Assembly (NCBI GenBank): GCA_903813345.2
Contig: CAIIXF020000001.1
Coordinates: forward strand, 42,873,366 to 42,937,365
DNA length: 64,000 nucleotides
DNA from: Owenia fusiformis
Lineage: Eukaryota; Annelida; Polychaeta; Sabellida; Oweniidae
Reading direction: 5' to 3'
In this document: piece by piece, positions 1-27,200 of the stretch
Position numbering within the stretch: the first letter of the stretch is position 1
Layout: every line of letters starts with the position of its first letter
Translations under genes and position numbers: made by a program
The notes under the pieces: generated by a model
Databases searched by the model: none
Seen by the model: the letters and a program-made list of their open reading frames with translations, nothing else
Told to the model about the DNA's origin: nothing

Positions 1-1
1 T

Positions 2-222
2 CAAAGTAATGGACGTGGTCAAGGACAAGGTCAAACAACTCGAACTGCTTATGCCTGTGAAGGAGCTATGTTAGATGTTTCATGTATAGAGGGCTGGGTC
101 ATAAAGATCATTCGTGCCAATTATGGAAGGCTAACATCAAATATATGCAATCCTCGGAAGGTTACAGAAAATCTGAAAACTGATTGCATGTCAATCCAGT
201 CCCTTCGGGTTGTCATGGATAG
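2..222 (+). CDS. ADGRL: ADGRL exon: N-terminal half of RBL/SUEL lectin domain (partial at left edge)
   Basis: The frame is open from base 2. It reads a Gln/Gly/Asn/Arg-rich stretch, then [14 protein letters not shown], the conserved start of latrophilin rhamnose-binding lectin domains. IRANYGR and paired cysteines follow. The exon ends at VVMD plus two bases (phase 2) before gtaaga. Its real start may lie left of the window. It must be joined to one of two alternative second-half exons (1319 or 2818). Confidence 0.9.
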
Positions 223-3200
223 GTAAGAAATGTCCAGTTTTTTAAAATTTCGCATGTTTCTTTTCAATATTCTTGAAATCTGAAGATAAGTATCTAGTCT
301 CTTTTGTGTTCTTGCATAACAAAAATGATCTTTAAAGTTCACCATTTAGAAATAAAGTGAATTTTGTGGTGATGGTGGCTGGCTGGAAGGGAAGCCTTTA
401 AAATATATTTTTATCCAACTTTATGCGCTGAAGATTCTTCGTTTGTAGTGCTTATTTAAATCATGATTAATATCGGATGCTGAAACAAGTAATATTCAAT
501 GAAAAACTTTCATTTTGTATGTTACATCAAATTTTGAAGGCTTTCTTAAGGGGACATATCAATATAACAAATCCAATAAAAACTTAATAAAATAATTCCA
601 TTTTGTTTTGACCTACCCCTTCTTTCCTTACCTTACCAGTGGATGGATTTGGTTCAAATTTTAAATGCTCATGCCTAGAGATAAGGGAGCTTTGCTCAAG
701 AGGAAATTTTCAAGATGGCTGCTATTTATCAAAACATGTTTTGTTTGGTGGGATTTGCTACTCCGTGGAGTTGCTGTTTTCTAGTTTTATTCTAATAGAT
801 AATAATTGTTGAGATTGATTTACTCCATGTGAATGATAGGAACTCATCCCCACTTCCACATATATTACGACATATTGATACTTCCCCTAATGATGCATGC
901 TACTGTTCTTTGTAGGTGTCATATTTTTTCTAAAACAGTCTTATATTAAGCTTGTCTTTGTATATTCTGTTTGATCCTAACTTTTATAGCTATTACATAT
1001 AACCATGTAACAATAATTAAAATATTTCTGTTCAATTTTAGTTTCAGTTCTTTATATTTTGATGCTATATATTCCACAGTGCATTGTAAAGTATTAATAT
1101 TTTACAGTGCACAAATTGTACACTCAATGCATCATTTTATACACTTTTGGCTTTCACGGCTCAATATGCCTATCATATGCTAAATAAATAAGTTTTGTAA
1201 TATTTTCTTAACCTTAATTTCTTGAAATTTCTGTTGTAAATAATTAATTAAGTACACAAAATATTCACCTCTGAAATATTGAATAAGAGCCCCACCTATG
1301 TTTTGCTTACGTCTCTAGATGTGACGGGCTAATACGCTGCGGTATTCCAGCTAGTAATGCAATATTTGGTGATCCATGTAATACAACTCGAAAATACCTT
1401 GAAGTTGAACATTATTGTCAGCCAGGTAAGGGGTGAATGCTAGCTTGGCCCTGATTGGGCGCATGAGCACTGGACTTGGGAATGCAACCTAACAACTGAT
1501 GGTCAATATTCAATGTGGTTTGTGTATTTGAATATACATGTATATGTGCAGCATGCTTAGATAACATCTTGGTTTGGTGATAATTTATGAGAAAAAAATA
1601 AAACATGGCAAAATTATTGCCAATAACTTGCATGGCAAATTATTGCCAGTAACTTGCATGGCAAATTATTTGCCAATAACATGCATGGCAGCAATGTTGA
1701 TGTTGCCGATAACTTCATGTCATTATCTAATATGTAACCAACAGCATTGTAACTTCTAATATGAACAAAAGGCACAATCAGGAAAAATTCAAGTTGGTGT
1801 CTATAACCATACAATTCCAAGGCCACATTATGACATTCTCATTTCAAATGAAATTATCACATAAATGAGATATTCTTGAAATGAAAATGTACATACATGT
1901 GATCTTTTCCAAGTGCGACTGGGCATCTTCTGAAATGCAGAGTTCTAAATATGATCCCCTCAGTTCCATAATCTCTTGATATTTCCCTTCAGTTCTTTCA
2001 ACAATGTTTGCAAAATACTCTGGAGCCTACACAAACTAGTTCCTTTCTATGACAGACTTGCCAACACCATGGAATGGTTATGGGGCAGTTTTGATAATAT
2101 CCAAAATTATTTTGGTTTTAAGTTTTGGGAATAGACTAGATGCGAGTAGAAAAAATCTTGATTTACGCCATTAAATATTCAAAATTCAGTCAAAGCGATG
2201 TTATATTTGAAATCTACATGTAAAAGTACATCTAGAAATATGTTTTCGAAAATTGTTTATCAAGTTTGAAAATTTAATTATTTTTGAAAGTGTGACTTCT
2301 AGTTCGGGTTGATTCTCCATAGAGCCCATGTTACGTAATCACAAAAAGTGGAATATCTTTTCTTGTATTGGTCAGATAACATTTTCATTTACTGGACATA
2401 TTTTGATTTGCATAACTATTAGATACATAAGGGTTATATGAAAATTGAACCACTAAAACAGATGTAATTTAAGTTAAAGGGAACTTTCTACTATACCCGC
2501 CATGCTATCTGACCCGAACGAGCCACCTGGTGGTGGAACTGGTAACTATCTACTCGCATCTGCGTTATTATATCGAGCAAATAGGTTTCAGAGATTCAAA
2601 TTCTTAACGTTACATATTTTCTGAGCGTTACACCAGTTTAATTTCCCAATTTACATAAATTAACTTCCTAGAAATAGAATTGGCAAGAGCCTTGTATTCA
2701 GAAGATGAACAATTTAAGTGCCACCTATAGTCATGTTTTCTCACCGGGCACTCTAACACTGCATGGTGTGACCATTGTTTGACTGTCTCGTTTATGCCAC
2801 TCTTTTATGCATGCCAGGTGTAACAACAAGAGACGTTGCAAAATTCGGGCCAGCAATGATGAGTTTGGAGACAAATGCCCTAATACCCCTAAGTATCTTG
2901 AAATACAGTACAAGTGTCGCAAAGGTAGGGTATAAAACACAAATTTCCCATGTACAGGGAATGACTAGGATCACAAATGTTCCTGGTAATATGAATATTG
3001 TCAAAAACAAGAATTTGGAACCTATTATCAAAATCAAATCTTCCCATTATCATCCACATTAATTCTATTTCTATTGAATCTAATTAGTGTTCATTAAACA
3101 ATTTTCCTGTTCTATTTTTAACTTACTTAAATTCTAGAGCTTATTTGAGGTCAGAGAGTGATTGGCCTTTGATGCCAATTCTCGTACTTCAATCTTGTCT

Positions 3201-6200
3201 CTTATGTACATCTACTCTCCTAGTCATTCCTGGTATGTGAAGTCATTAAACACCTGACTAGGCATGATGTTTTGCAATTAACCATTTGTGGTAGACTACT
3301 TATAAATAATAGATGTGTAGTGTACATGTACATGTGTAATTTACTGGGCCTGTTATTTTGAATTTTATATCCAGATCACTTATTCATGAAGCCCAACTGG
3401 TGCAATGTGATACTTAAAAAGCTAACTTTGTTTTATGAATTTATACTTTTGGGAAATGGCACTCAGAGAATACATTGCAGCATCAAAATTAGGAAACTTA
3501 TTATGTCATGTATGTAGTTGGGGGACTTTTTCAATTTCATATGAAATTATTCTCATCATTTGATGTTAGACAACTAAAATGAAAGTAATGCTGGTATTCA
3601 GAAGATAGATATTTCAATCTTCTCTCTGACACTTTTCCCTTAAGGTTTCAAAACACTTGTTAAACTTTGCCGGTGGCCATTATTATGTGTCTAATAAAAT
3701 CTACCAAAAATTGGAAAAGTTTCAACTTGGGTGGTGTATTAATGAATAGTTCGGTCATCTCAAGCTAAATTGTCACATTTGATGTCTTCATGAAGTGGTA
3801 TTTCATTTTATCTACAATGATCATGGCATGATAGAGGAAATGCCACATTATCAAAAAACCCTGTCTGTCTCAATGAATCCACTTGGATTTCGTTTCAATA
3901 ACTCCAAAATAAGTCAATTAGAGATGTTTTTGAGAAGCTCTATACATTGAAGTGGTCCCCTAGGGCAAGTTGGTTAATAATTGTATTTGGCTTTGTACTT
4001 TATGATATAAAAGCTAGATGACTCATTCTATTCATTTATACACATTCACAGTCATCCTATTGAAGTATTTTTCATCTGTTGTATATAGTTAACCTGTAGC
4101 ATGCACGAACTTAACAAACTTAGTCAGTATAATAGCTCATCTTAGATTCTAATCATGATCGTGCTGATGTTTATTCCTATGTTAAAATGTGACATTTTTA
4201 CTTCCTCACATTTGAAGTCTCATTTCTTCTCATGAAAGTAGAATTAGTTTAATTAACTAGAGATTGTGAGAATTTGATTTGAAATTAAGTTGTAATGTAT
4301 GTCGGTTTCTATACTGTACCATGTCTGAGTAAAGAAATGTATGTTTTGTGCCAATGTTCAGGTTTGTTGTAATAAAGAGCTAATTTGATGTTTTATAGGT
4401 TGATAGTTAGCATCTGGAAACCATAGAGATATTTTTGTCAATTTTATGTTCAAATAAATTATAATAAATATTTAATTTTAGCTATGATCATTTCATTGGT
4501 ATTTTCATGGCCAGTGGGAGGATGTATGATTTTGCTTGAACACAAACTTGATGCAGTACAACCTCCAGATCATGTGATCCACATCCATTTTTTGTTTATA
4601 GGTCATTGTGGCCCTACATGTTTGGGAAAGATGTTCATAACTCATGTCTTAACTTCATAAACATGAAGACAAATGAAACCAGAGTGACAGTTTATATTGT
4701 TCCTTGCAACACATCTGTCTGCAATAACATCATAATCTCTTTTGAGATATTAATTTCAGATAGCAATTTGTTAGTATTCTTATTTGTTGGAAATCTTGTA
4801 TTTTTGGTTACCAGTTTTCCATACACACAGATGAAGATGAATTATATCTCAGGCAGCAGTTATTCCTCTCTTACATTAGGTATATCATTAGTATGCAATA
4901 GTGAACAACTCCTGATCTGCAAGGGAAAGGTCTGCACTCTCCACCATGAAGGTCATGTAATCAGTTTCTTGTTATTTACAGATTCAGATTCTTGTTACAG
5001 ATTAACAGTTATTTGGATTCTGTTATTTTCAGTACAAAAACCGACCACTTCAACATCTACTTCAACAACTACCCAGGCAACGACCCCTTTAGCCACTACT
5101 AAAGTGGTTACCATAGATACTGTCTCAGAGTGTAAGTGGACTGATGAGTGTTGCTATAGTAACCATGAATGTTGTAATTATTAATTGCACCATCGTGTTA
5201 TGATTACCTACACCCCCCCCCCAAACACAACCCTATACTAAACCATTCTATATATATTGTATATGTTTGCTTAACACACCTGTATTTTAAGCTTTATTTT
5301 TAAGATATTGTAATTGATTGTAAATTAGTTATCTTTGTTAATACATCATAAGCTGCCATTGCCATGATTTCTTGCTGTTTCTGCTTCAGAGTTCAGTTCA
5401 GAAATTCAACAATTGAATTCAGTTAAAATTGGAATATGCTTGATATTCATGTTGTATTCATCATATATTTTATGGTGTTGAGTTGAAATTAAAATAATTT
5501 TGTGTTGTGTTCAATGTTGTATGTTTCATTTTTTCTTAATTTGGAGTATATTTTAGAGGTTCAGTGTTCCACAGTTTTAACTGCCTACCACTTCTAAGGT
5601 AGAAGGACTAAGCTTACCTTAATTGGATCATTCTGTGAAGTACATGTATTTACAAACATTTCATCGATGATGAATGTGTACAATAAGGGGAAGGATTTTA
5701 TTTTCGACAATAGAGCATTTTTTCTGAAATGTGATTCAAATCTGTCTAACAACCTTTGTTCACTTGATCAATCTGTAACCAAAGGTTATGTATGAATGGT
5801 CCAATTAGGGTAAATTTGTAGATGGTTCCATCCCTCAAGCTGAATTAGCAGAGATTTACATCCCGTAACCATACTCCTTTAGCAACCATTTTCCAACTCT
5901 GGATTAAAAACGATATTCTGTTGTTTTCAGCACAAGTTACAAACACTTCAATCACGGCTTCAACAAGTACCCCAGTAACTATTCCCTTGACCACTGTTGA
6001 AGTTGGTACCATAGATACCACTTTAACAAGTTCCCTAGCAACTACTCCTTCACCTACTGTTGAAGTAGTTACCGTAGATACAACCCCCTCAAGAACTACC
6101 CTAGCAACTACCCCTTTGGCCACTACTTTTGAAGTGGTTACCATAGATACCATCTCTGAGTGTAAGTGGACAAATGAGTGTTGCTATAGTAACCTTTGGT

Positions 6201-9200
6201 GGATGGTGCAATTTTACCCATGCCATCATATAACAATACCAAACCCAAACTGACCCTTCAAATCAGTCAGTGACAATCAGCTCAAGCTACCAAAAATGAC
6301 TCTCAGTACCAACATTTAACAATATTACTGTCACTACACTATCTGATATTTTTATTGTGTTCTATTTTTGGTGTAAAATGATTCTCATGTACTATTGTCA
6401 CAGACTGATCATTAACATCTGTACATTATGGATGTTAATATAATATCTGTGTTGTCCGCTTTAAATGTTGCTCATAATTATCTTAATTTTTAGTTGCTCT
6501 GGCCATGAATGCTTTTTCAGCTTTGCAGTTCAGTTCTGAAATGCATCACTGATGCCATAACAATATACATTGTACTCAATCCTGAAAAACAGTTGAGGTT
6601 AATAGAATTGAGTATGTTTGAGGGTTCAAGGTATATCTTCAAGATAATAGAGTTGATACTAAAATGTGTTGTTTTGTTTGTTCGGTGTTCATTTTTATTT
6701 TCTTCTTTATTTGGAGCAGATATTTTAGATATTAAAAGACCCATTATTGGAACAGAAGATGTTACGATATCCGCTTCACAATCTCCTTATATAGTCAACC
6801 CATTGAAACATTGTAAGTTAAGCAACCCCACCCTAACTAAGCACCCCTTCACCAGTTTACACCCCAATTTCTTCGTCTTGTTTCAAGTCCAAGTGTTTCC
6901 CTCTTGTATTCTCATCATTCAGAGAGTACAGGGGGAGGGGGGAAGGCCACAGAGATTTGATACAATACGTCCTTATATAACCCCACCTCCTTATTAGATA
7001 GTGTAAGATGTACTAGATAGTTCCTCCCCTCGTCTCTTTCATCCTCAAATTACTCTTTGTGGAGTGAACTAGCTGAATAAGCCAAGTTGTTCTCCCAGTG
7101 AACAAATAACATACATATTCTGTCTCACATAACACAATTTTATCAAACATTGACTCAGCATTTTTATTTTGAGGTTATAATGGACTCCAACTGGTCAGAC
7201 AGGTTTGTGAGATATCACAATGAACTACTGCGCTCTTGCATCTATACTCTTCATTTCTGTTTTATTGTTAATATCTTATAAAGTTTCCTTTTGATTTCTG
7301 TTCTCTCTCTGTTTTTGTTATTAATATGGGTGCATATCAAGGCTTTGTTTTGTCTTATATTCCCTAAGAAAATATATTTCAAAATTGGTCTAAAAATGCA
7401 TGATTTACAATTGAATAATCCATCATTTTCATGAGGCTAAACAATATGTTTCTCTTCACTTTCAAGTGTTGACTTGAAGGCTGATACCTAATATTATTAC
7501 TGCTTGTGTTTTAAAACAATTGGCACTGTAGTTAGTTGTGCGTGCCCAGGGGTAGATGGACCAACTAACTGCCAACATATCAAATGTTTTGTCTTTTTTC
7601 AGGCATTGATTTATCTGATGCTTCTATTGATTTAGAACATGGACAGATAAAATGCTGTTGACATTTATCATAAAACAATATACACAGACAACTAAGAAGT
7701 TTCATGTGGTTATTTTAGCATAAATATTGGTTTGGTATCTGTTGACCATATGTGTTATTTGTCCAGGATTTTCTAACAAAAATAATTTGCATGAAACCAT
7801 TCAAATGTGAGATGAATAGATTGTAATGAAAGTGCTTTATCATTGTTCATGCTTTAAAACATAATATTTAGTTAGTGTGACACTTTCATGATAACATAAC
7901 TAGTTTTACTTGTATTTTTGAGGCTGATGTCAATATATTGTAAAACTTCCTTTTCTACAATGTATTGTTATGCCTCTAAAATACATGGAAATATTTTAGA
8001 AGGTCAATTTCCAATCAACTACTATACAGGAAAATATTCAGCTATTGCCCATCAAATAGGCTACTATTTTAGCAAGACAATTTTGCAGCCCCTGAATTCA
8101 AAATAAAATACACTGTATTCATAATGAATAATTTTTACTTTGATTAGCTGAGAAACCTGACCCAGAAACACCTGTAACCAGATCCCCGGGGCCAGGAATC
8201 AAAACCCCATCCCCAAGGCCATCTGTGGATCCAGTCACAGGTCCCCCAGTCTTCTGCAAGGCTGTCATCAGGCGTTACATCACTTGGCCGAAAACTAGGG
8301 CAGGGTTAGAAGTCCGAAGAGGGTGCCCTCACAATACAACACCAGGTAAGGTTGGTTAACTGACTTAAGGAAGTTAGCTGGGTCAGATTGTGAAAACTTC
8401 ACCCTATATATGTGTTGGGTATGTGAAAAATTGTTAATACTTTAGCTTTGGTTATAAATCAGAATGTTATTAGGCCTATTATATGATTCAGCACAGATAA
8501 GTGTGTTGTATTTTAAGTAAATAATTACCATCTCGTAATTACTTCCTCAATAAGTACATTGCTTCATTAATCATTATTATTGTTGTTGTTATTCTTTTTC
8601 TCTGAAAGATCGGAATGTGTAAGATTATTGAGCTTAAGGTCAATATATACTGATTATATGATATATGACAACCTTTACTTCAGTATACAGTAAAACCTCT
8701 CCGAAAGCCAAGGGTGGTCCACTTACACAGGTTTCAACATACTGTAGTTGCCTAATTATTTTCAAAATATCGGTTTTACCAGTAGTTGCCTAATTATTTT
8801 CAAAATAGCTGTAAATCACAGCATAAGGCAATTATAAAAGTCAGTGTTCTGTGTGAGTGCTATTTGAATAGTCCAAAATGGCAATAATAAATGTATTTCA
8901 TATATTAATGGGCTGGTTAGAGTATAAATCACAAACTAAACTTGAAATCTACAAAAAAACTGAGGACATAGAAGATCATATCATAGGAAGACATGTCCAC
9001 CTGTTAAGATTCTTTCAAAGTTAAAAACCAACTTTTGACAAGTGATGTGTGGGTGATAATATAGTAAAAGGACCTTAAGTGCCTTTACCATACCTGTAAA
9101 CAATACATTCTGACCTTGCTATTCTGTTTTCAGATAGATAAGTGATGTCATTCTTTTCATGCCATGTTTTAACAAGTTTATGATGTTCAAAACATTGTTT

Positions 9201-12200
9201 AACTTGTCAGACGGACTTCCTCATGATAAGTCTTAACTATGATGTCATTTAATTGATCTGAATATTTTGGTGAAATTAAATGTAATTTTTGTTTAAAGGT
9301 TATAACCATCTGTCATGTGAAATATCATATTGAATTGTGAAAGGTTCACCTTGTTTAACGAGCATAAAACCACATAGGAAATACCTGTGCGATATATTAA
9401 TAAGCTCTCAACAAAAATTTGAACCTGTGTGAATCTTCTCAAAAACTAGTAATTCATACTGATTCACAATTTTGAATTTGAATTGTTGTTTTAATGTTTT
9501 TTCAAGCATGATAATTAGTATTGTATAGATCCAATACTTGGTTTGAACTTTGGAAAATTTTGATTGAAAATATGACGTTGTAATTCATGGTGGCTTTATA
9601 TTCCCAAAAAGAGGAGACGTTCACAAAGTTGAGTAGATATATGAAGAATTACCATTCGCCACCTTGATCAAAAATCATAAAAAAAGTTTCCCAGTAAAAA
9701 AACAAGTGTGAAGTGATCATATGTTTCAATGCTATACTTAAATTGTAATTTAAGCCATTGTTGTTTCAAGTTCTAATTTTTTATAAATTTGCTTTTAGGG
9801 AGGTACACACATGTTGATTAATCAATTAACCGACTCAATGGACAATTTGTAATCTTAAATATTTCACAATCGAATCTACTTTACTTTTGTTAGCTTTTGG
9901 ATTCATATAGAAAGAATGAAATTAAGTTTTCAAATATTTGCTAAATACCAAACGAAGTAAGTGTTGTGTGTTTTTTGTAGCCCCAAAACCACATAAATCA
10001 ATATATTGGTCGTTATTAAGGGTGAAAGGGTCACTTTGTTCCGTTTATTCAAAATGTTGGTACTTAACTCTGAAACAAAAGTCTGGTTTTCAACTAGCCT
10101 AACATATTGATGTAAAGTAAAAGTTCAACTTTTGTCCATTTCTTTATTTATCACTTGTCATGATTTCTTTTTAATTTCTCTGTATGTTTCAAACATAAAA
10201 TACTGTATGGTATATGATTTAATTTAAATGGATAGAAATTATCATGTGAAAATGTGTAGGACCATCTTTCAAAGCATGATGTTTAGTATACAATATGTCG
10301 TGATTACAAACCAATCGTTGATCTATATCACGCCATACTAAGATAATTCTTTTGGTGGAAATGCTATACAAAAGTTATCTACATAGTTCCAAGGTCATAT
10401 CGACATCCTCATAAATATTAAAAAGTGAACATTTTATTGCCCCCTGAAGCACTTCTTAGTAAATAAAAGATACCACATCAGGATCTTGAATTTTAGTCAT
10501 ACTCTGCAGTTGTCTAGATCCCCGCTCCCTTAAAGCTATACAGTCTTTCGTATAACCCCAGAAATGCCATATTGTTGGTAAACCAGTTCTGTAATGTGCC
10601 ATGTTTCTGTAGGCTATGTAGGAGACTTATGGTTTTCTGAACGACTTACACGTTCTATTATTTCACCGAGAGACTAGGGTGACCTCGATGTCTAGTTTTC
10701 TGTCAAGACGAAAATCAGTCTAATGATTGAATTTGACTTTGTTATTCTCAGGGGATTTTTGTGCTCTATGAATAAATCTAATGAATTTTGTTATTCTTCA
10801 ACTGGTGTAATAATATTTGTAATATATCCTAGCTATTCTCTACAGACCAGGCATCTGTTGGTATATTTGTAATATTAAAGTTGATCTATACTGTCTACTT
10901 GTCTTGGTACATAGACTATATATTGATTTATGAGATGATTCAATCAAATGTTGTAATAACATTTATTGTCGAGAACCATACCAGTTCAGATTGGTTTCAT
11001 CTGATGAATTTCATCTGCAGAATTTAATACATTCATATCCAAGAGGAAACTCTGTGTATTTATATAACCTAAAAGGTTATTTTGGAAGGATGATTTTCAT
11101 TTTATCATGTCGTAATTATAATGATCAATGGATATTAAAATGATTACTGCACGATTTTCTGCCATCATTTCTCAGAAGCAAGCATTTATGTTAAACGGCA
11201 ATAGTCTGCTGTAGTAATATATCATAGTAAAGATTAGACACTCCGATTAATAATTCCCATAGCTCATACTTTCGTGTTTGTATCAATTCAGAAATGATGG
11301 GATCATTTACGCTAAATCAATAGTGATTATTATTAGCTATATATTATAATAGTTCCTGGTGGGTGGCGATGGATGCAATCATCAGTTAGAGATGACTAAT
11401 TCTGAACATCATAGTTCAGCTTGATAGATGGTTGTGTTCTATACATCCTACTGCCATCTTTATTTTGTGTGCAAGTCTATAAGGTTAACATTGTATTCAA
11501 CAGTTCTATCTGGAAAGACATTACCTGTTAATACGAGTATGGACCGTATGTTGGTTAGTGACAATTATCAAGCTAAATGTAGTACTAAATATTTTTTTGC
11601 AATGTATCATATTAACATTGTAACAAAGAGTATCTTATCTCAATATGTGTAACTTGTATATTGAGTATTAATAGTGGTCACCTATTTATTGTAAAAAATG
11701 AATTAATTTCTATGTTTATGATTCCAGGTGCACACTTTGCAACATGGAGGTGTGGGGAGGATGGTGTGTGGAAGGAAGAGCCAGATCTCAGTGAGTGTGT
11801 GTCTCCTAAAGTGAAGGCATTGAAAAGCAGAGTAAGTATGAAACCATAATGGAATATGTTGTATACAAGTCTATATGCAAAGTTGTACCAATATGGCATT
11901 GACATTCTTCTTCTTGTGACTTGTGTGATTACACTTACAATTGGTATATTTATGTAAATAAATTGATTAAGATTTAAGTAGGGAAACAAGAATTTTCTAC
12001 TCATATGCCATTTATATTCATAATTGCACATGTGATTTCTCTATCGATAGGTCAGTTTGAGTTTTGATAATGAATTAAGATGTTCTTTAGACTTCTTTTT
12101 TACTGCTGCTGACCAAACAATGTTTTTAAGTGTAAATCCTGTTTTACGTTTCTTACTGGTATATTCTTATTCCTCCAGCTGGATAATGGTGAGGACCCAG

Positions 12201-15200
12201 ATGTGATTGCTAAAGATGTTAGTGAGATAACAGCCAGACCACTGCATGGTGGTGATCTTTCAGCCACTAGTAGAGTGATGAGTAATATCATCCTAGAGAC
12301 AGAGTCAAGGGTTAAACGACTGCCAAAGGCTGAGGCAAGGACACTTGTAGAGGATGTCAACCAGGTAGGAATAGTGAAATAGACATTTGTAATAAGTTAC
12401 ATTAGTATTGATATGAAAGGAATATACAGGGTGGGCCAAATTTAATATTATAAGGGTAACACTTTTGGCCCACCCTCCAAATAAACCATTTCATATATTT
12501 TGAATGTCCTTTTTCAGATGTCACTTGCAAACATGTGGAAATATTTCATATAAGATTACTTGTACTGTAGGAGCGACATGTATTATCAAATTAAATACCT
12601 TGCATTATTCAAAAGGTAATAATAACAATCTATTTCATCAGGCTGTGGTGCAGTCTAGCAGCAACATTCTGGATGACTCGCAGTCTGAAGGCTGGCGCGA
12701 TCTCCCACAAGCAAAACGCACACAAGTAGCAACCTCTATAGTGGTGAATATAGAAAGTAGTGCGTATCAAGTAGCAGCGACTATCACAACTCCTGGAGTC
12801 ATCTCTAAGGCTGACAGGAACATCAGTAAGTCAATGAACTCTGTCTTAGAATAAATACAGTGTATACAAGACTGTTATATCTGAAACATTTAATACAATT
12901 AGGTACAAAGCAAGCCAATGTACTGGAAAGTGAATCTTGCATGTCCTGGGTTGATGCCTATATCATTTATTGCATTGGTGTTTCCAGCTAACTGCTAAAT
13001 GAACAAAAATGATTGTCTTGAGAAAATTCACTTAAATATTAATAAGCATATTATTTTAAAAACTATTTGTTTGTTGTTGTAGTGGTTGAAGTAGATGTTG
13101 TGTCACGTGACCAGAAGGAGGATATACAGTTCCCACACTCCTCCCACACAGGAGGCTCAGTATGGAAGAGATCTGTTGATACCATCACACTTACAGCCAA
13201 GACTGTCATAGAGTTTAACCAGAATGGTAAGTCCTCAATGCCGGCTATATGGGTTGACCTGGGAACATATCTCTACATTCCAGTAGTGTGCAAGCTCATA
13301 TAATGTATGAAAAAAGGCCAAGACAATCAATCTCTGACTTAACTCATAGTGTCAAACTTACCTTCATCGGGTGTTGTAACTTGCTATTTAAAATGAACAG
13401 CCTCAATTAAAATACATCAGAAATAATTGAAATGCTGTTGGTTTACCAATGCTTGCTTCTCTCATACATACTAAACAGCACATATATCCTTGTAGGAATG
13501 ACGAAGGTTGTATTTGTGGCCTATAACAACTTGAACAACTACCTGGGCTCAGAGCAACAAAACAAGGACAATGTTTCACAAGTTGTCAACTCTAAAGTTG
13601 TCTCTGCATCCATTAATGCCAGGAAGGAAAACTTACCACTCAAGGATCCTGTTATCTTTACCTTGAAGCACAATTCAGACAATACTGTAAGTTATGAAGT
13701 TGACAATAGGATAATATTACGCATCAATCAAGTGAGAAAAACAAGGTGATCAACATAGAAAAAATACAATGGTCATCTTTCAGTTAAAAAGTGAGGTCTC
13801 TAAGCAATCTTAAATTGACTGCAGTTGACATTGGCTGAATTTTCTTTTTGATGGGTTGTATTGAAACATACTAACATTTTGTTTTCTCAAACTTGACCTT
13901 GAGTATTTTTTTTCTATGCTAAAATTGTTTCTTCTACCTGCTGAATATTTCATGTGTTACATATATATTGATTTGATTTATAGTCTGGCTTAGACTCTGG
14001 GAACCCAAGATGCTCTTACTTCGACTATGAAAGGTAAATACAGAAATGAATATATGTACATGAAATAGAATTTTGGTTAGATTTCATGTGTTGATGAGTC
14101 TGACTTGTGATCTACCTATTTAGATGAAGTAGAACCTTAATACTCTTCATTTTTCAATTTATGTTAATATCTGTAGCATAATCATTCGTATTAGAGAATA
14201 GTTTGTCATCAGATATATTCTATGTTATAGCGATTCTGTGGGCAGTTGGTCAGAGGACGGCTGCAGAGCTCTATCCACCAATAAGACACACACTGTATGC
14301 TCATGTGACCATCTTACCAACTTTGCTGTCTTAATGGATGTTGTCGGAGTCTCGGTAAGAATCAGTTCTATATGATAATTTTTTCTTAAATGTTTGGGTT
14401 CAACATGAAATATGTCAAAGTATCTCAGAATCTCAATTGGTAAATTGGTTCAGTACTACTTTGGATAAAGGTTGTAGAAATTCGATCATAGATTTTTAAT
14501 CTTATAATTAGTGAAATAATCCAGTAGGATATAGGACAAGGCTTGTCAACAAAATGTGTCCTTGACTCAGAATCCAGAACTTAAAATTCAGATTTTCTTT
14601 ATAATATAATTGCTGAATTCTGTTCCAGATGGCCAGGCAGCATGTGTTTTCCCTGACCTTGATTACTTATGTTGGATTGATCATCTCCTTAGTCTGTCTG
14701 CTCTTGGCCTGGCTTACATTCGTTTTCATCAAGTAAGTTAAGAGTTTTTATTTTTGGATTATATGTATTTTATTTAGAGTTTATGAAGAAATATTTATGT
14801 TTTGAGACAACTGGTAATTCTCTTTTTTGAATATAAATAACACGAGGCCTTTTAAAAGTGCTTAAGTGACCTTCTAATGGATTCCCATTACTCATGTTTT
14901 CTGCCATTGGTGATAATTGCTTCAGCTGATTGTTACAACTACTACATTCTATTTGATTATTTTCAGAAACTTGCAGTGTGATAGAAATACAATCCATAAG
15001 AACCTGGTGTTTTGTCTCTTTGTGGCCAACCTTGTCTTCATTGCAGGAATCACACAGGCTGACAAAGTGGTATGTATCTGTCATAAATATATGAGATATA
15101 TTTACTAATAATTCACCAATCATAAATATTAATATTACCAAGATTTTGTGAATTTAATATGTTTTTTTTACTTATTGTAACTTGATTATGACAGATCAAT

Positions 15201-18200
15201 TAATAAAGTTACTATACGAAATCTGTGTTATCATCTGTTAATATCTCTGTCACATCTCTAGATGTATTCATGAACTGAAAACAAACCAATATAGGATATC
15301 AAAGGTGCTCTTATTACTTTCTAAATTTTATAATTCTTTAAATGTTTCTAATTTTGCTCTCCTTTTAGAAAATCATGAATGTATTTCAGGTATTATGCGC
15401 CATCATCGCGGCAGTTCTACATTTCTTCTTCCTGGCCTCATTTGCTTGGATGTGTTTAGAAGGCATTCAGCTTTATGTGATGCTCATTGAAGTATTTGAA
15501 CCTGACAAGTCTCGCAAATTGTACTATTACCTAGCTGGCTATGGTATTCCTGGATTAGTCGTTGGAATATCTGCTGCAGTTCGTCACCAGGGATATGGGA
15601 CACCTGAATAGTAAGTTAAGCTTATTTAGTAGGTTAAAGGTAACATAAAATATATGACGTGGCAATGAATATTGATTTTTATATTTTTGCATTTCTTAAA
15701 TGTTGCAATTGATATCTTTATTATTTTTTGGTACGGGCATTCCTAATATAAATATTGAATTCGGATAATTATTATGTGCACATAAAGTTTAATAATGCCA
15801 TCATCCGCAGTTCACCTGGATTATTGATTCATACAGTATTTAGGATTGCCCCAGATTGTATGAACTCATTCATGTATATTTGTTTCAGTTGTTGGCTGAG
15901 TGTTGACAATGGCTTCATCTGGAGCTTCGTTGGGCCAATTGCAGCTGTCATCCTGGTAAGTAGAGACTGATTGCTGCTTAGAGGCCAGAGCAAGTTTTCA
16001 TTTACCTATATGACTATTGCAATGTTACATATACAGTCTATATAATTAAAGACACAGCATATTACTAATCCACTCCACTATTGGTACAGCCCAGTGCATT
16101 AATGTCTTATATTGAGGATATAAAAATAGGATGAAAATTGAAATAGGCAAGGAGACAATATGATAAGCTACCGTTACACTTCAGTTTCAGTTCAAAAAAT
16201 CTGAGTTAATATTTCCTGTAACATTTTGATTTGGCATTTGCCTGACCTGCTTCACGCCAAGCTTCACTCATGTCAGGACATTTACATGGAAATTAACACA
16301 GTTATTAAAGAGTACAGGTATATGATGTATGTTTCAGGTGAACATTGTGATGTTGAGTATTGCCATATATATGATGTGCAAACATGCCAATACAGCATCA
16401 CAGATCAAAACACAGGAGAAGTCACGCATGGAACAAGCAAGGTCAGTTATTTTATTGAATTAACTCCGATATCAATTTTTATATAATTAAAAATGCATCA
16501 TACAGCCTAGTCAAATAAACAAAAATCATGTTGAATAGTCTTAAAAAGTATAAACTTACATGGAAACACATTCATCAGATAGTTATGCTAAACATAATTA
16601 TTAAGTCTTGAGTTGATGTTACTGTGTGATGCTTTATGCAGCCGGAAGCCAGGAGAAAGAGCGGGTAACCATGGTAATGTTGCGAGACAGACAAGTATGT
16701 CTCCACAAGAGACCATGTAAGCCACTAGTATAGTCTCTGTGTTGTTCTTGTTAACCTTTCCTCAGTCTTATTTATGTGATAGATTCATATTAAGAAAAGA
16801 AGAAGTAAGGCAGATGTGGGCAATAAAATATTACAAATTTTATTGAATTACGTAATGTTACATAATAGTTACAATAAAATAATTTTTGGTTGGGGCAAAA
16901 ATGCCCGCACATATATGTACATGTGTATAACAATACATGATAATGAGACAAGGGTGGTGGCTGGGGAAAATGGGGGGAAAAGATTTTTACTATAATATAA
17001 ATCTATATATATATATATATATAATGACTATGAAAATCAGTTAAAATCTATTTTATAAATGTATCGATATCTAGGCTCTAGGCTGTAAGTTGAAATATCT
17101 GTGAATGAGACTAGGTAGTCTGTGAAAACAGAAACCCTAGAGCCTGGAAGATTCTGATTGGTTACTGATGTTAGAAGTTTAAAAGGTTAAATATTGCATC
17201 ACCACACAAATATCCTAATGAAGCATTAGGGTCATTTATGTGATAGATTCATATTAAGAAAAGACAAATTTTATTGAATTACGTAATGTTACATAATAGT
17301 TACAATAAAATAATTTTTGGTTGGGGCAAAAATGCCCACGGAATGCTATATAAAGATAGCATGAACGCCCCAACCCAAGGCCTTAAGCACCACCCCCTCT
17401 CAAAATCAGAAGGACAAATACCATTATCAGTGTGACTTATCTTAAAGTAATTACTTTAATGATGTCCATTAATTCCTGGTGTGCCTGTTACATGAACAGA
17501 GCACTTAAAGATGATTGAGCGTAGCATCCCAATGATATGCTACTGTGATCAAGAGATAGTCAAGTGGAATGCCATTACTTGTAATTAACCATGGAGGTCG
17601 TGAGAAATTAAAGATAGCAGATAAGACACACTGAGGGCAATAAATTGAATTAATGAAATCTCTAATGTTACCCTACTTACACCATAGGCTTAAAATTGTA
17701 GTACTTGCTGGCATTGTTGTATGAATGATGATTACCTTAATAATAGTTTAATAACAAGATTGGTAGATAATCATAAATGGTAACAGCTTTGCCAGTTTCA
17801 TCTTGTAAAGCAGGGTGATCTATAGACTATCACAAATGATAAATCCATCTAAAAAATTTAATGTTCATTGAAGTGCTTTGCTATATACATGTATGATATA
17901 TACAGTACACAAGTTTAAAAATGTAATGATAACATGCATGAGTAGTATATAATATGAGGATAGGTACAAATACCCAATCCTCCAAATGTTATGTAATACT
18001 GAGTATATACTACTGATCTAGGTTAGAGCTATCAAGTGGCACCACCGTCTGAGTTATATATTGAATTTTTGAATTCTAATGTATTTTTTCACAGCACTTG
18101 ATTTCCATCGACCCATTTGTGTAACAATATCTTGGCTCACACCTTCTGATATAAGTTGTGTAGCATGACCAATGCGTAAACTGTGCGAATTATATTTTTT

Positions 18201-21200
18201 AGGATCAATACTAGCAGCTTCAAGTGAACTCTTTAAGTATTTTACAAATAAAGACCTACAAATAGGTACTTTATGTTCGTCCAAGAATAACGGGCCTTGC
18301 TGGCCCCCCCTAAGCTTAAGATAATGTACCATGGCTGAGTATGGGCAATATTTTGATCCCCTTATGGGTGATATCAATATGTTGAAGGGCTGGGTTGGAT
18401 TGTTATGCTTGCAGTTGGACATTTTGATACAAACACCTGCATTTGAGATGGATATATCGGAAAATTGTATTGTATTTATGTTATCTTTGTGCCATGTGAC
18501 TTCCCCAACTCTTAGAAAAGCACCATATGTGAAGAGAAAGAGAGCAGTGGTCATAATTGCTATATAGTTGTTAGCATAAATCACCGGTATAATGTCAATA
18601 AGTTTTTTAAGAATGTTCAAAGTAATTGGAAGCCTACCATCATTAGAAGGCCCTCCCATTAACTGTGCTCCCTTCTGGAGCTTTCTAATGATGAAACAGT
18701 CTGCTGGGTCTGGGACATCGCATATCTTATGTAAGAAAGATAAACCTGAGACATATGTGTTGATGGATGAGCCAGAGTAGTTCAGGAGAGATAGATAGGC
18801 AATGAACTGTGATAGCTGTTGGGTCGAAATGGGGAACTGAACACCCTTTACTGTGCTGTTACTGTGGGAACAGAACTTCTTATATAATGTCCAAGCTCTG
18901 AGATAGTTTTCTTTTGACTTTGTGGTGAGACTTTTAGACATCAGTTGTGTAATTCTTGCAGTAATGTCAGATTTGGAGAAATCTTGGTGGGCGAACTTTC
19001 GAGCCAGGGTGCCAATGCTTTGGCTTTTTTTACCTGCAAGCGTGATAATTGATCAGAGATAATGTTATGTTTACCACAAATATGCTTAGCTTTGAAAAGT
19101 ATGTTATGTTTTAAACAAGACAGGACAAGTTGTCTCAGTATTTTGAGAGATGTTGTATTCCTTGTTGTGGCTGTGTTAATGATGTCTACTACACCCTGGT
19201 TATCACAGTGAAATATGATCTTGTGGTTTGCAAGGGCAGATCCCCATGTGTGTATAGCAACATAAATGGGAAAAAGTTCTTTTGAAGATATGTCCCAGTG
19301 TCTTGACTGTTCATCCCATGGAATGATGAAGTACTTTGAACCTAGGACACCTGCACAAGCGTGAGAACCACTAGCATCCGAGTAGAAATTGATTTTTTCT
19401 GAGTTGACCCATTCCTGGTGTAAGAACATGGAAATACCATTGTGATTTTTCAAGAACAATTTCCAGATCATAAGATCTTCTTTGACCTCATCAGGAATAT
19501 TTATGACAAAATTGGAATTTTTTGATCTGATCAACCCTTTTGTGAGATTGTACATTTTACGGATAAATGTTCGACCAGGGGCAATAACTTTGCAGGAAAA
19601 GTTCAATAGACCTAGCAATGACTCCAGTTCTTTAAGGGTTATTGTTGTTGCATCATAGTACTTGTCAATTTTGATTTTGAGTAATTTTAACTTTTCCTGT
19701 GGCAGTCTTGCTTCCATTTTGATTGTGTCCAATTCTATACCATACACAATTTGACATGTTTTTGGCTTGCATGTTTTTGAGTCTTTGATTGGAAGACCAA
19801 TATTTTTTGCTACTTTGAGAAAAGTTTCGAGATTTTTGTTGCAGGTTCCATATGTCTTGCCAATGAAAACGAAATCATCGAGATAGTGAGAGGTGTCTTG
19901 TATTCCAAAGGAAATGTTCAATATTTTCTCGAGATTGGAGCTAAATCTCTCAAAAATTTGGCTGGAAGAAGCGCAACCTTGTGGCAAAACTGTATCATAA
20001 TAATACATATCATTCCATGAAAAACCTAACAGGTGATGGTCCTCTTTACAAATAGGAATAATTCGGTAAGCATTTTCGACGTCAGATTTTGAAATAAAAG
20101 AACCCCTCCCATTTTTTTGGATTAAATGGATAACTTTGTCTATGGAGTCATAGTGAACTGTTGAAGCATGTTCGGAGATACCGGCATTCACTGAGTTGGA
20201 CTGCCTACTGGGGAAACTTAGGTCATGTATTACTCTGAATTTACCATGTTCTTTCTTTGGAATCAGGCCAAGAGGTGAAGATCTAAAATTTTTCAAGGGA
20301 GGATTTGAGAATGGTCCAATAATTCTATTAGCGCTTAATTCTTTGTCTAGATATGCTTCAATGACCTTTGGGGACTTGTTAACTGAATTATGGTTGTATG
20401 TGATTGAGGATTCTATATTCCTGGGGCCCTCATATTGTAATTGGAAACCGACTGTAAAACCATTTTTCAGAAAATTGTGTTCAGATTCATTTAGGCATTG
20501 CATAATTGCTCCTAAGGGTCTCACATTAATCGGTGTTATGATTTTGTGTGTCTGTGCACTTGAAAGCAGACATTGGGGATGTGTGTGTTTCTCTTTTGCA
20601 TTTAAAGCATAGATGTTTGAATTTGCAGGAGGAGTTTTTTGTACATTTTCCAAATTTTTGGAATGAGAAACAGTATCCCTTTGGGATGGTGGATTGTTTG
20701 TTACCGGAGTATTTTTTGTCTGGTTTTTGGTTGACTGGCTTTTGGGTTTCAAGAAAGGGCTGCCCTAGGCGTAGTGAAGCTTTTGAGAAAAGTTCAGTGT
20801 TGAAGTGGTCCCATTGAAAATTCATTTGCTTCTTGTTGAGTCTAAAGTTTTCATCATAGAGCTTAGCTGTTTGAAAGTTTCCGTATTGGGCCATTTCTCT
20901 AATATCTTCACCATATTTCAATAGCTTGGTGACCTCATTTTTGTGTGCTTGGCAATAAATTGATGTGTAAATGTGAAAAGCAGTTGTCCAATTGTTTATG
21001 TTGTATATCAGGTTCTTTACCTTTGGGGGGTTAACAAGATCGCTTATAGCTTGACTTAGGGGGTTAACTAGTTTTGGTCTTAAATCTTGAGTGGCTGTTA
21101 ATAGTTGGTTGAAATCTACATAGGCGTTTGAGACAATTTGTTTTTTAATTTTTTCTTCAATTCTGGATGTTAGGGGAATTCCTGCCCCTGTTAATGGAAT

Positions 21201-24200
21201 AATATTTGGTGGTGCCAAATGATAGGACTCACCCGCACTGGCCTCTTCTGTGGGAGCCTTCAGGAAGTTCTCTATAATCTCTCCCATGTTTGAATCTGGC
21301 GGAGAAGCTGAAGTTGAAGGCGACGGTTCCTGCTCTTGCCTGAGCTTTTTGAACAAAGACTCCACAATTGCATCCCTGTCAGCTTCACTCAGACTTCCTG
21401 ATTGTTTTCTCTTTTCCCCCCTATTTTGAGTGGCAGGTTCAGAGGCTGTATCCCCTTGCACTATGGTTGACCTATTTGCACTTCTTAGTTTTGGCATTGT
21501 GGTTTACCTGGAATACAGAGGGCAGCCAGAGAATTTTTTGGAAACATTGTGTTCTTACAAAAATAAGGTTATGAGGAAATGATTAAATTGCGTCTCATAA
21601 TGAGAGACTAATATATAACACATATAAAAAACAACATGAGTACTGCATCTCATAATGAGACGACTCATATATAACACATATAAAACAACATGAGTACTGC
21701 ATCTCATAATGAGACGACTCATATATAACACATATAAAACAACATGAGTACTGCATCTCATAATGAGACGACTCATATATAACACATATACAAACAGCAT
21801 GAGTACTGCATCTCGTAATGAGACGACTCATACATAACACATATAAAACAACATGAGTACTGCATCTCATAATGAGACGACTCATATATAACACATACGA
21901 AAACAGCATGAGTACTGCATCTCGTAATGAGACGACTCATACATAACACGTATAAAAACAACATGAGTACTGCATCTCATAATGAGACGACTCATATATA
22001 ACACATATAAAAACAACATGAGTACTGCATCTCATAATGAGACGACTCATATGTAACACATATAAAAAAACAGCATGAGTACTGCATCTCGTAATGAGAC
22101 GACTCATACATAATACATATAAAACAATATGAGTACTGCATCTCATAATGAGACGACTCATATATAACACATATAAAAACATGAGAACTGCATCTCAAAT
22201 GAGACAACTCATATATAACACATATAAAACATGAGTACTGCATCTCAAATGAGATCGTTCATACCAGAACAACTAAATGTTTACAACTTAAGATATTACT
22301 CTGCTGGGAATGATGGTGGTGATAAGGACTTACCAATATGGATATCCCTAGTAAGGATGAGTGATCTTTTTAGATTATCATGAAATCTTTGGAGGCCTAT
22401 GTCATTTAGATGAATTCCATCCCAGATAGTTTGATTCTTAAGTCCGTGAAGGTTTAAACCTTTGTTTGGAAAAATCATTATTTGTTCCCTTGCTAGATGA
22501 AAATTACACTTTTTGGCAGGCTTTCCTAATAAATGCCATATATATTCATTCACTTTATCCACTTTTTTGTTATAATCACTTGTACTTGGATGTATTCGGT
22601 GGAATAATAGCCCAATGCTGACGCATTTTACAAATTCATGTTGCAACAGATAGTTGCCAACTGATATAATGGCATTGGCAATCCTCTCCGGGTCTGAACC
22701 AGGGATGTCAATATCATTCTCTCCCATCTGGAGATAAATCAGCTCTGGTGCAAGTGTTGATATTTGTTTATACAAATGTGGAAGGAGGTGTTTTTTCTTG
22801 TTTTGAGATGATGATGTTAGAAGAACCCCTCCCCGTATACCTTGACACTCGATTTCAAATTCTGATGCGTTTAATTTAAAGTTAGGTGAGCTTTTTTCAG
22901 TGAAGTTCCTCAGCCAATATATGAATGATTGTCCGAATATGAGAGTCTTTACCGCTGCCATACTAATCCCAGCAGAGTACAAATAGGTTAGGTGTAATGT
23001 ACACTTACCAAGTTTGCTGATAAAACTGATTTCCTAAGTACTCGTAATATCCAATTGTAAGGCTTGATGACCTGTGTTTGAGTCAATTCTCCTTTTTATG
23101 AATTTAAAAAACTACTACAAAAGATTTTTACTATAATATAAATCTATATATATATATATATATAATGACTATGAAAATCAGTTAAAATCTATTTTATAAA
23201 TGTATCGATATCTAGGCTCTAGGCTGTAAGTTGAAATATCTGTGAATGAGACTAGGTAGTCTGTGAAAACAGAAACCCTAGAGCCTGGAAGATTCTGATT
23301 GGTTACTGATGTTAGAAGTTTAAAAGGTTAAATATTGCATCACCACACAAATATCCTAATGAAGCATTAGGGTCATCTATGTATATCACTCTAATCTACA
23401 TATAGATGTCAGTCTAATCCATATATATATAGAAGTGGCATTTTGGATCTTACTCTATGTATATATGATATTATATACTTCTGATTTCTCCATGCCAAAT
23501 ATTTTGTAAGGTTGATTAAAGGTGCACCATGCACCAGATTAGGGATCATCTCAAGATGTTTCTTTAACAGTCACCATTTCCAACATGTGTATGTATGTAT
23601 ATCTGGGATCTTGAGGTGGTCCCTCACTGAAACAAGACATTAGGCATGATCTTCACTTGAATGCTACTAAGGACTATATCCTCATATTCAAGTAGAAATT
23701 GTTTTGACTGAAACTTATTTTCAAACTTTTCTATATCTAGCAACTTGAGATATGAACTTATACAAATGACTAGTCAAGTTTCAAAAAGATATATACCAAG
23801 AATTCAACATATAGGATGTCTTTGGAAAACTTATATTATTTGTGGATAGTACATTTGTATACTGTATATGTAAGGACTTTTGAAATTAATCATAAGGCAT
23901 AATATTTCTATTGTTACTATTCCTGCATCTGCAGAGATAATTCTAAAGCCCCTGGGACACAAAATGAAATCCCCAAACCACCATCTCGAACTGAGGAAAT
24001 CACGTAAGGCCATATTTGGTCATTATGTCCATATTTGGTTTTGGTTATATGTAATTTGTTGGTGCAGTACCCTGTTCACTACATTGTTATTTCACCGCTT
24101 TTGATTAATATTTGTCTTGAAGTTGATATTTATTATTTGACTTCATACGTGAAATTTGGCAGTGTTTGTCTGTTTATATTTATGTTCAATATTGTGGTCT

Positions 24201-27200
24201 GTATTGTATATACCTGTACATGCTTTTCTGGTATTACCTTATATCCCATTAGAAACACAGAAATGCAATTGAAAAGCTTTGATGTGTCACCTTATACGTA
24301 TAACTGTGTGTATCCACTTTATATTAGTTCTACTTCATTCAATGTTTGCATGCATTGACAAACTATTCAACAATTAATAGATTCAATCTGATTCTTTTGG
24401 TAATTACATACTGTTCTGTATGTTAGCATGAGATAATGTGTATTTTTGTTTTTGTTTTATTTCTGGACCGAGGAAGCAGTTCTCTGTTTGTTATTGTTTT
24501 GTAATACATGTGGAGTATGTACACCAAATCATTTACAGTAAATTGTTGTTTCAATAAGAATTTTTGAGTTGGTTAAGGTTAGATTAGATTTTTCCTTTTT
24601 CCTTCTGAATCTTTTCTATATATATAGTAGTCTACTATCTTTCTTGTGTGGGAAGCATGACCTGTTAGAGGATTGATATTAAATAATTGATCAGTACTTT
24701 TCATTACTTTGATAGAATACAGTTTATTTGTAATTGTGTGTATAGTTTGAAAACTAAACTCATGCACAAATTTTGGCATTTTGTCGAGTGAAAAATATGA
24801 GATGTGTGCAGTCTCTTATATTTATTTTTATAACACCCAGACTTGACTAATCAATCAATGTTATATTTCAGATCATGGATTAAGGGAGCCGTTGTGTTGA
24901 TCGTGTTGTTAGGCCTGACATGGTCCTTTGGTTTCCTGTATGTGAGCCAGCATACCATTGCCATTGCTTACATCTTCACCATTCTGAACACTCTCCAGGG
25001 CATGTTCATTTTCATATTCCACTGTATTATGAATGAAAAGGTAAGGATTGATGACACTTATCTAATCAATTTAATTTTCTTATTGAGAACTTATTACTTT
25101 TAAATGTAGATACATATATAATCTGATTAGTAAAGATATAACTATCACCTCTTATGACATCAATTATATTGTGCCAACTATAAGGGAAGAATAATACTAA
25201 TGAAAGTATGGGATTGTTGTTCATAAACAATCAATCAAAAATGTGAATGAACAAATATATCTCAGATAACCATATAGGGATGCAATCGCCGTTACCATGG
25301 TTTATATTTAACAATGAGTTTTTTAATTTGGCAATTAGGTCCAGAAGGAGTATAAGAAGGTTGTTAGGAGAACAGAATGGCTGCCTGATTGTATCCGGGT
25401 CAAGTATGGAGAACACAAGGGCCTCTCATCTACACCTCCCCAGTCTACTTCTTCAAACAATGTAAGTGCTACATGAATCTTGTCATGGATTTGGGCATGC
25501 TGGGTAAATTACTTGGTGGCCATTTTGAATTTTTGATAAAAGTTTCTTGTTTCTATTCAGAATCTTTTCATGATGTTGTGGATTATTCAAGCTATAGGTC
25601 ACCTGAGCTATCTGTAGAGTTGATACAGAATATCATGTGATGTCATTTCCCTTTCAGTTGTTTAATAAAATGCTGAGTGCAAGACGTAGGAAGAAGTCGT
25701 CAACTAGTACCCTGCCAAAAAGCTCTGGACCCATAGCATCAAAATGTAAGTGTTTATCGGTTCTTCTAGATATGTTCACATATTGCTGTTTGTCCTGGCT
25801 AAATGTATCATTGAATCATTTAGTTATTTAAAGTAGACTTGATATTTCCGAATGGGAACATCAGATCATAAATTTTAGTCATTTGTTTTCATGCGCATCT
25901 TTAAAATGGAGGGAAATGCATAGCTTTATATTTCTATTTTGTGGTCGTTTAGCAATGGTAAGGTAAAGTCATCATTTTAAAAAATTGAAACAAATCTTAT
26001 AAATAACTGCACATTTGCAATGATATCATGAGGATATTTTATGGCAACAAGCACATTATGGTAGATGACATGTAAAGAGTGCTTATGAGAAAACTCATCA
26101 AAAGATTGTACAAGGTTGTTTTCTTGATATTTGTATTTTATTTACATATGTTTCCCTTCAGCGATATTTTATCTTAATCTGCGTGAGTGTGAGTACGTAT
26201 TTGCATGCAGGGTTAGAGTTCAATTAATGGTGCCGTTTAAGTGTTTTATTGTTAAACTTTCCTTACTATTAATGCCTTGAAGACGAATTTGCATTTGTCA
26301 TTACATTTAAATGGATTCCTGTTAACTAATATCAGCTGCCATGGAGAATGAGTTCAGGTTTGAAATTCATTAACAAATGCATTTGATTGATGTATACTTG
26401 ATGTATATGCTGCGCTGAAATGGAATTTGCGTCAAAATATGTTTTGGCATCACTCAATAAATATCACTGGCTTGAGCTACAACTTTCTGCCACGTAATAT
26501 GATAACAAGAATGCTATGACCTTGATGAATGTACATGTATTTATGAATATGAAATCAAAGATATCGGTTGTGTGGGTAGGTTTCTTTGAGTTTGCAAATA
26601 CTTGTATCTCTGGCAATTCCTGTGTGTGATCCAAACATGGCTTTGGTATAAATGTAATTTTGATGGATTTTTCTATTTAATATTTTTGCCTCTATCACAG
26701 TAAAGCATCTCTATGTTGTCTAAATGTTCACTTAGGGTTCAGGGGTTTCACATTTATTATTTTTAAAATATTTTTTTGTGTTGTTGCCTAATATAGGGAT
26801 GTCACAATATGGTTGTAAAATAAATACTTGAACATATGGAAAATTTTGAAAATTGTACAATAATTATGAATTTGAATACTTTTTACTTAAAATATATTTT
26901 TCTGGTTTCAGGGCATTATCAGAATATGAAACCGAATATTGAGAACCAGTCAAATGGCGTCGAGTCAGTCTTTGCCGACTCTGGCCAGGGGTCAAGTGCA
27001 GGTCCTCTCCCTGAAAAACATGACGTAGAATCCCCTCCCCCACAGATCATAGTGGATGATGGAATTGATGCTGATTTATCAATGATTGATGCATCTATAG
27101 TTGACAGTGAATTTGTCAGCGAATATTGCAATGCCAATTTGGCAGTCACCAATGAGAAGCCACCAAAAAGTAAACCTGCCGATAAATCAAAAATAAGGTT

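Follow-up and report, generated by a model that had tools for sequence, protein, structure and literature searches.

FGFR2 and worm egl-15 have mutually exclusive exons that specify one half of an Ig domain involved in ligand binding. These are alternative receptor exons under UGCAUG/RBFOX control, as described in PMC3585155. In vertebrate latrophilins, splice site A comprises 4-5 residues between the lectin and olfactomedin domains and alters teneurin affinity, and mutually exclusive events are drawn for Lphn2 and Lphn3 (PMC6629964). Latrophilins direct how synapses and tissues are wired. The ligand of their lectin outside vertebrates is disputed; the invertebrate receptors have been argued, perhaps, not to bind teneurins (PMC6422961). 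Here we analyzed a 64,000-nt window of the Owenia fusiformis genome (C1:42873366-42937365; 498 Mb in 525 contigs), which carries a latrophilin gene in which a 107-nt exon, encoding the second half of the RBL lectin domain, is present twice, as exon A at 1319-1425 and exon B at 2818-2924. We consider, with a probability of about 0.8, that splicing picks one of the two per transcript. As at splice site A, the splicing would concern the lectin region in the same receptor family, but half the lectin fold would be exchanged between homologous exons, so that, if both forms are used, alternative splicing acts inside the fold and not beside it. FGFR2 and egl-15 differ in that they are receptor tyrosine kinases and not the RBL lectin of an adhesion G protein-coupled receptor (GPCR), and a role of RBFOX is only predicted here. 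The first-pass annotation of the window, which proposed the switch, knew of no earlier description, and indeed we found no exclusive lectin-domain exons of a latrophilin in the open-licence literature. The accessible part of an adhesion GPCR review (PMC13197933) contains "mutually exclusive" twice, neither time about exons, and in that of PMC13108381 exclusive exons are mentioned solely in a legend, where they name a type of event.

We re-read the exon pair from the bases, and confirmed that both exons on the + strand are 107 nt long, with an entry phase of 2 and an exit phase of 1. Their boundaries are CTCTAG/A..CCAG/GTAAGG for A and GCCAG/G..AAAG/GTAGGG for B, and in both cases the preceding exon supplies the first two bases of an Arg codon and the exon itself ends one base into the next codon. 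When only A or only B is included, the spliced gene holds one open frame of 1,449 residues from signal peptide to stop. As the annotation had stated, joining both shifts the frame. We find that joining or skipping both leads to a stop in the next exon, E3 (5033-5131); the first stop falls at residue 357 with both exons and at residue 289 with neither, in each case in E3 with 19 junctions downstream. An early stop with many junctions downstream is the standard setting for nonsense-mediated decay. Either exon can stand in for the other in length, phase and fold, and the full receptor requires that just one of them be included; splicing would thus take one exon per transcript, and the products of double inclusion or skipping would be removed by nonsense-mediated decay. 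Taken together, the sequence strongly supports the view that this is a genuine latrophilin with an exon pair made exclusive by the reading frame.

Other routes to exclusivity were also considered. Steric exclusion by a short intron was rejected, as the intron between A and B spans 1,392 nt (~950 nt without a ~440-nt repeat), and U2/U12 incompatibility is not suggested, with GT-AG ends at both exons. For RNA docking, an uncontrolled listing gave 24 inverted-repeat pairs, the best of 32 nt at 78%. The ~440-nt repeat, at 2130-2569, is a high-copy element and a recent insertion; 39 of the 40 other places listed, from 3,648 candidates, match it at 95-99% identity.

Both exons encode the same, second half of one RBL (SUEL_Lectin) domain, as first proposed, and each fits the Pfam profile. 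The complete domain scored 71.7 bits with A and 77.8 bits with B, both as full-length matches (cut-off 31.4). When all six frames of the genome were scanned, A alone reached 33.0 and B alone 41.9 bits, so that they are two of the 14 places above the SUEL_Lectin cut-off, among 18 places listed in all. The peptides share 18 of 36 residues and the exons 59 of 107 bases. When peptide B was searched against 223-2817, the best match was exon A with a BLOSUM62 score of 95, and the best score in 100 dinucleotide shuffles was 25. The conserved features named in the annotation stood up: all four cysteines of the second half and KYL are present in both copies, so the published four-disulphide pattern can form with either one, and the net charge over the 36 residues rises from 0 in A to +7 in B. 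The fits to single relatives are divided, with 121 bits with A vs 115 with B for CSL3, and 72 with B vs 62 with A for ADGRL2.

Since RBL domains often stand in tandem, as in an EVA1-like locus elsewhere in this genome, the pair might be an assembly artefact or the relics of two complete tandem domains. We regard this as scarcely credible, because copies at 59/107 nt identity cannot be haplotypes, a search from -20 to +28.5 kb gave no second first-half, and joining both exons breaks the frame. Six queries over that same interval gave no third second-half either, and tandem complete RBL domains were rejected for lack of any credible extra half-domain match. The four other RBL exons that we read, at three places (two in L003 and one each in L004 and L005), have different boundaries and form no exclusive pair. 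The EVA1-like locus itself (L003; C11:5170000-5178000, - strand) has two RBL second halves, the first of which lies in one exon together with the RBL first half that follows, which makes this a tandem and not an exclusive pair.

We then compared the copies codon by codon. Including the two bases from the shared upstream exon, identity at codon positions 1, 2 and 3 is 24, 23 and 13 of 36, and without those bases it is 45/70 at positions 1 and 2 vs 13/36 at position 3 (Fisher p = 0.007). Because third positions are near saturation and the first two are held, the copies are old and constrained as protein. In a neutral, substitution-only model (20,000 runs), the frame, the AG/GT ends and the four cysteines survived in at most 0.18% of runs at 0.4 or more substitutions per site, and 2.8% of runs kept all features at 0.2 substitutions per site. 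The codon pattern excludes long neutrality of both copies, and is still compatible with a recent loss of use of one. It is conceivable that only one exon is in use, the other being a recently silenced or rare relic of an old duplication. By eye, the pyrimidine tract at the acceptor of B is weak (TTTTATGCATGCCAG), the donor of B reads GTAGGG, and the A-B intron has gained the recent repeat. However, the splice ends, the frame, the cysteines and a Pfam score over the cut-off are intact in both exons, and the long constraint requires that any silencing be recent; we consider this alternative unlikely.

The assignment of the gene as a latrophilin (ADGRL-type adhesion GPCR) is strongly supported by its domain content. 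We extended the gene 20 kb upstream of the window and joined 23 exons (E0-E22) by hand using splice signals. The spliced protein has, in order, a signal-like N-terminus, Collagen, SUEL_Lectin, a Thr-rich stalk, HRM, GAIN, GPS and 7tm_2, and the last four Pfam domains scored 40.5, 111.4, 57.5 and 236.1 bits, respectively. Among solved structures, the best PDB chains for the GPS-7TM part were ADGRL3 (380 bits) and L2 (325), followed by ADGRE5 (255). Neither an olfactomedin domain nor the Latrophilin cytoplasmic C-terminal region gave a Pfam match at E<=0.001 in the spliced protein. The olfactomedin domain of latrophilins has been reported from chordates only and is not required for ADGRL membership (PMC6422961); the C-terminal model is probably biased to vertebrates. 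The 7TM piece matched 27 places in the genome, with only the best candidates scored, and three of them came from the receptor gene itself; since the best other match is only 47% identical, we took the gene as single-copy.

We next considered what the exchange would do to the lectin. In mouse Lphn1, loop2 (residues 106-120) forms the main part of the rhamnose/sugar pocket, in which Glu42, Tyr63, Arg65 and Lys120 have assigned roles and Gly117 contacts the sugar through its backbone N (PMC2430599). In the numbering of that source, the exchanged segment corresponds to residues 95-130 and includes all of loop2. The constant exon keeps the equivalents of Glu42, Tyr63 and Arg65, both A and B keep Lys120, and the signs of a sugar-binding RBL (ACEG, ANYGR and KYL) are present with either exon. 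Judging from the published structures, the choice would therefore swap the sugar-pocket loop against a constant remainder of the pocket. Six of the 18 differences between A and B lie in loop2, at 109, 110, 114, 116, 117 and 119. The DPC motif, which PMC3269628 describes for RBL lectins together with the four-disulphide pattern, is retained in A, whereas B carries the run K-R-R-C-K-I-R; an Asn-Thr-Thr (NTT) sequon occurs at 116-118 in A only, with none there in B, and its glycosylation is a prediction from the letters. Form A would thus be neutral, with DPC and a loop2 sequon, and form B strongly basic and without that sequon. The choice would switch the ligand, between a glycan-capped or neutral-ligand form and a form for acidic ligands such as heparan sulphate. 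The human RBL receptor C21orf63 is described as heparin-binding in a title cited in PMC3269628. A domain pair that differs only in its second half, loop2 included, offers a natural test of loop function.

The annotation had suggested different adhesion partners for the two forms, to be tested with teneurin; the first part still seems reasonable, but teneurin is a less apt choice. The teneurin hot spots comprise D55, D68 and D73 of Lphn2, and the non-binding mutant of Lphn1 carries L39A, P51G, D54A, D67A and D72A (PMC6978801). In an alignment anchored on C41/E42 of PMC2430599, the positions of L39, P51, D54, D67 and D72 are Y, I, W, T and N in the Owenia receptor, and all five fall in the half from the constant exon. 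Since the hot spots are constant between the forms and the acidic ones of the vertebrate mode (D54, D67 and D72) are not conserved, teneurin is not the best test of the switch, though the second half may hold further contacts. Protein ligands besides teneurin may also be considered, because a table in PMC13197933 lists a worm latrophilin whose RBL domain reportedly binds LAG-2, a ligand of Notch.

The intron between A and B also offers candidate elements for control of the choice. It contains five TGCATG on the + strand, against 25 in the whole 64-kb window. Three candidate RBFOX sites, at 1629, 1655 and 1682 (+204, +230 and +257 from the donor of A), belong to a 26-nt tandem array of 3.3 copies (1604-1690, + strand), and two candidate RBFOX repressor sites at 2760 and 2808 (2760-2813, + strand) lie 58 and 10 nt upstream of the acceptor of B. 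The genome also contains an exon for a likely RBFOX RRM (78% over 36 residues). Worm RBFOX proteins act from the upstream intron to repress exon 5B of egl-15, and they contribute to the selection of exon 7a in unc-32 (PMC3585155); by this precedent the motif layout predicts that RBFOX switches A on and B off. We tentatively suggest that RBFOX proteins promote the use of A by way of the UGCAUG motifs downstream of A and upstream of B.

Upstream of the exchanged half, the receptor has a further unusual segment, which was absent from the first-pass annotation because it starts upstream of the window and was not visible there. Exon E1 encodes 42 uninterrupted Gly-X-Y triplets (GAQGEPGER units; residues 56-181), and the run (L001:9589-10000 into window 1-222) shares both its exon and its frame with the RBL first half; Pfam Collagen was above its cut-off in the spliced protein. 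Because exon and frame are shared, the collagen-lectin fusion is independent of the gene model, and only the link to E0 relies on it. The extra domains given for invertebrate latrophilins are EGF, Ig, LamG and FN3, and collagen is not mentioned in the accessible part of that source (PMC6422961); no collagen-bearing latrophilin was found in the open-licence literature searched. A single latrophilin RBL domain has been argued to need raised avidity for sugar binding (PMC2430599). The collagen run may trimerise the ectodomain and would, if so, add a way to raise avidity.

The nematogalectin lectin is presumably in the same Pfam family as that of the receptor. Like the receptor, this cnidarian protein has a signal peptide, a Gly-X-Y run and a gal-lectin domain, but it is a nematocyst protein, for which the accessible parts of PMC4195985 and PMC3269628 describe no HRM, GAIN, 7TM or exclusive lectin exons. 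Collectins likewise place a collagen domain before a lectin domain (PMC3269628), but theirs is a C-type lectin without a GPCR part. As a speculative and rather doubtful extension, the receptor might work as a collectin-like latrophilin: a collagen-trimerised lectin whose loop is switched by RBFOX-controlled exons, with an N-glycan on the A loop and a basic surface in B, so that the cell type decides the target.

In another possibility, exon A is in addition terminal, read-through giving a soluble collagen-lectin and only B making the receptor. Read-through past A would add GKG after YCQP and then stop, an AATAAA is found 172 nt beyond A, at 1597, and N-terminus-only LAT-1 transcripts are known in worms (PMC11540312). 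However, A has a good donor and the same phase as B and E3, AATAAA occurs 90 times on the + strand of the window, and read-through past B stops at once too, so that we hold this alternative to be quite improbable. Separately, read-through past either donor (1426-1436 and 2925-2935) stops within four codons of a complete lectin, so that a soluble collagen-lectin could be made from unspliced transcripts.

Several observations count against the preferred reading of an exclusive pair with a functional loop switch under RBFOX control. Over 33 columns, A matches the EVA1-like half at 19/33 but B at 17/33, and B matches the 5h4s lectin domain at 19/33; since other RBL halves match as well, the identity of A and B does not show that they are mutual closest relatives. 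At the position of Gly117, A has T and B has N, whereas all 11 other aligned RBL halves have G; at that of Tyr119, A has R and B has P, against Y in 9 of the 11. The loop2 consensus DPCxGTYKYL, which includes Gly117, is thus found in neither exon, and because both residues are changed, sugar binding may be lost in both forms. As for control, three of the five TGCATG belong to one tandem array, and with the array collapsed three motifs remain (Poisson P = 0.003); when the unique intron was shuffled 2,000 times, 151 shuffles reached three TGCATG and six reached five, and the hexamer TAACTT is enriched as much as TGCATG in this intron. The RBFOX reading is post hoc, and its statistics are weak after the array is collapsed. 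Finally, use of both exons and conservation of the pair are inferred from the sequence of this one gene.

The other exons of the receptor were placed as follows, with E1 and all later exons on the + strand. The signal-peptide exon E0 (L002:9495-9657) joins E1 in phase, and the constant exon E1 (634 nt) runs from L001:9589, 412 bases before base 1, to window position 222, encodes the Gly-X-Y run and then the RBL first half, and exits in phase 2. The constant exon E3, which encodes part of the Thr-rich stalk, joins A or B in phase 1, and is followed by the stalk exons E4 (5931-6161) and E5 (6720-6812). The HRM exons are E6 (8148-8345) and E7 (11728-11831), the GAIN and GPS exons E8-E13 span 12179-14354 (GPS, CSCDHLTNF), the 7TM exons E14-E19 span 14629-25040, and the cytoplasmic tail exons E20-E22 span 25339-27774, with the stop codon at 27772-27774. 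E3 and E4 look homologous, as both are in phase 1 and end in VVTIDT(V/I)SE, and E4 has internal repeats; the stalk could thus consist of Thr-rich repeats that are possibly expandable.

In the intron between the 7TM exons E18 and E19, a tyrosine recombinase (Phage_integrase) adjoins reverse transcriptase (RVT_1) open reading frames on the - strand (18054-20764), a pair that we take to be DIRS-like. A GDSL-like open reading frame lies at 22296-23033. Downstream of the receptor, a Kinesin-associated DUF3694 match on the - strand (43411-43917) probably marks a KIF1-type gene on the opposite strand.
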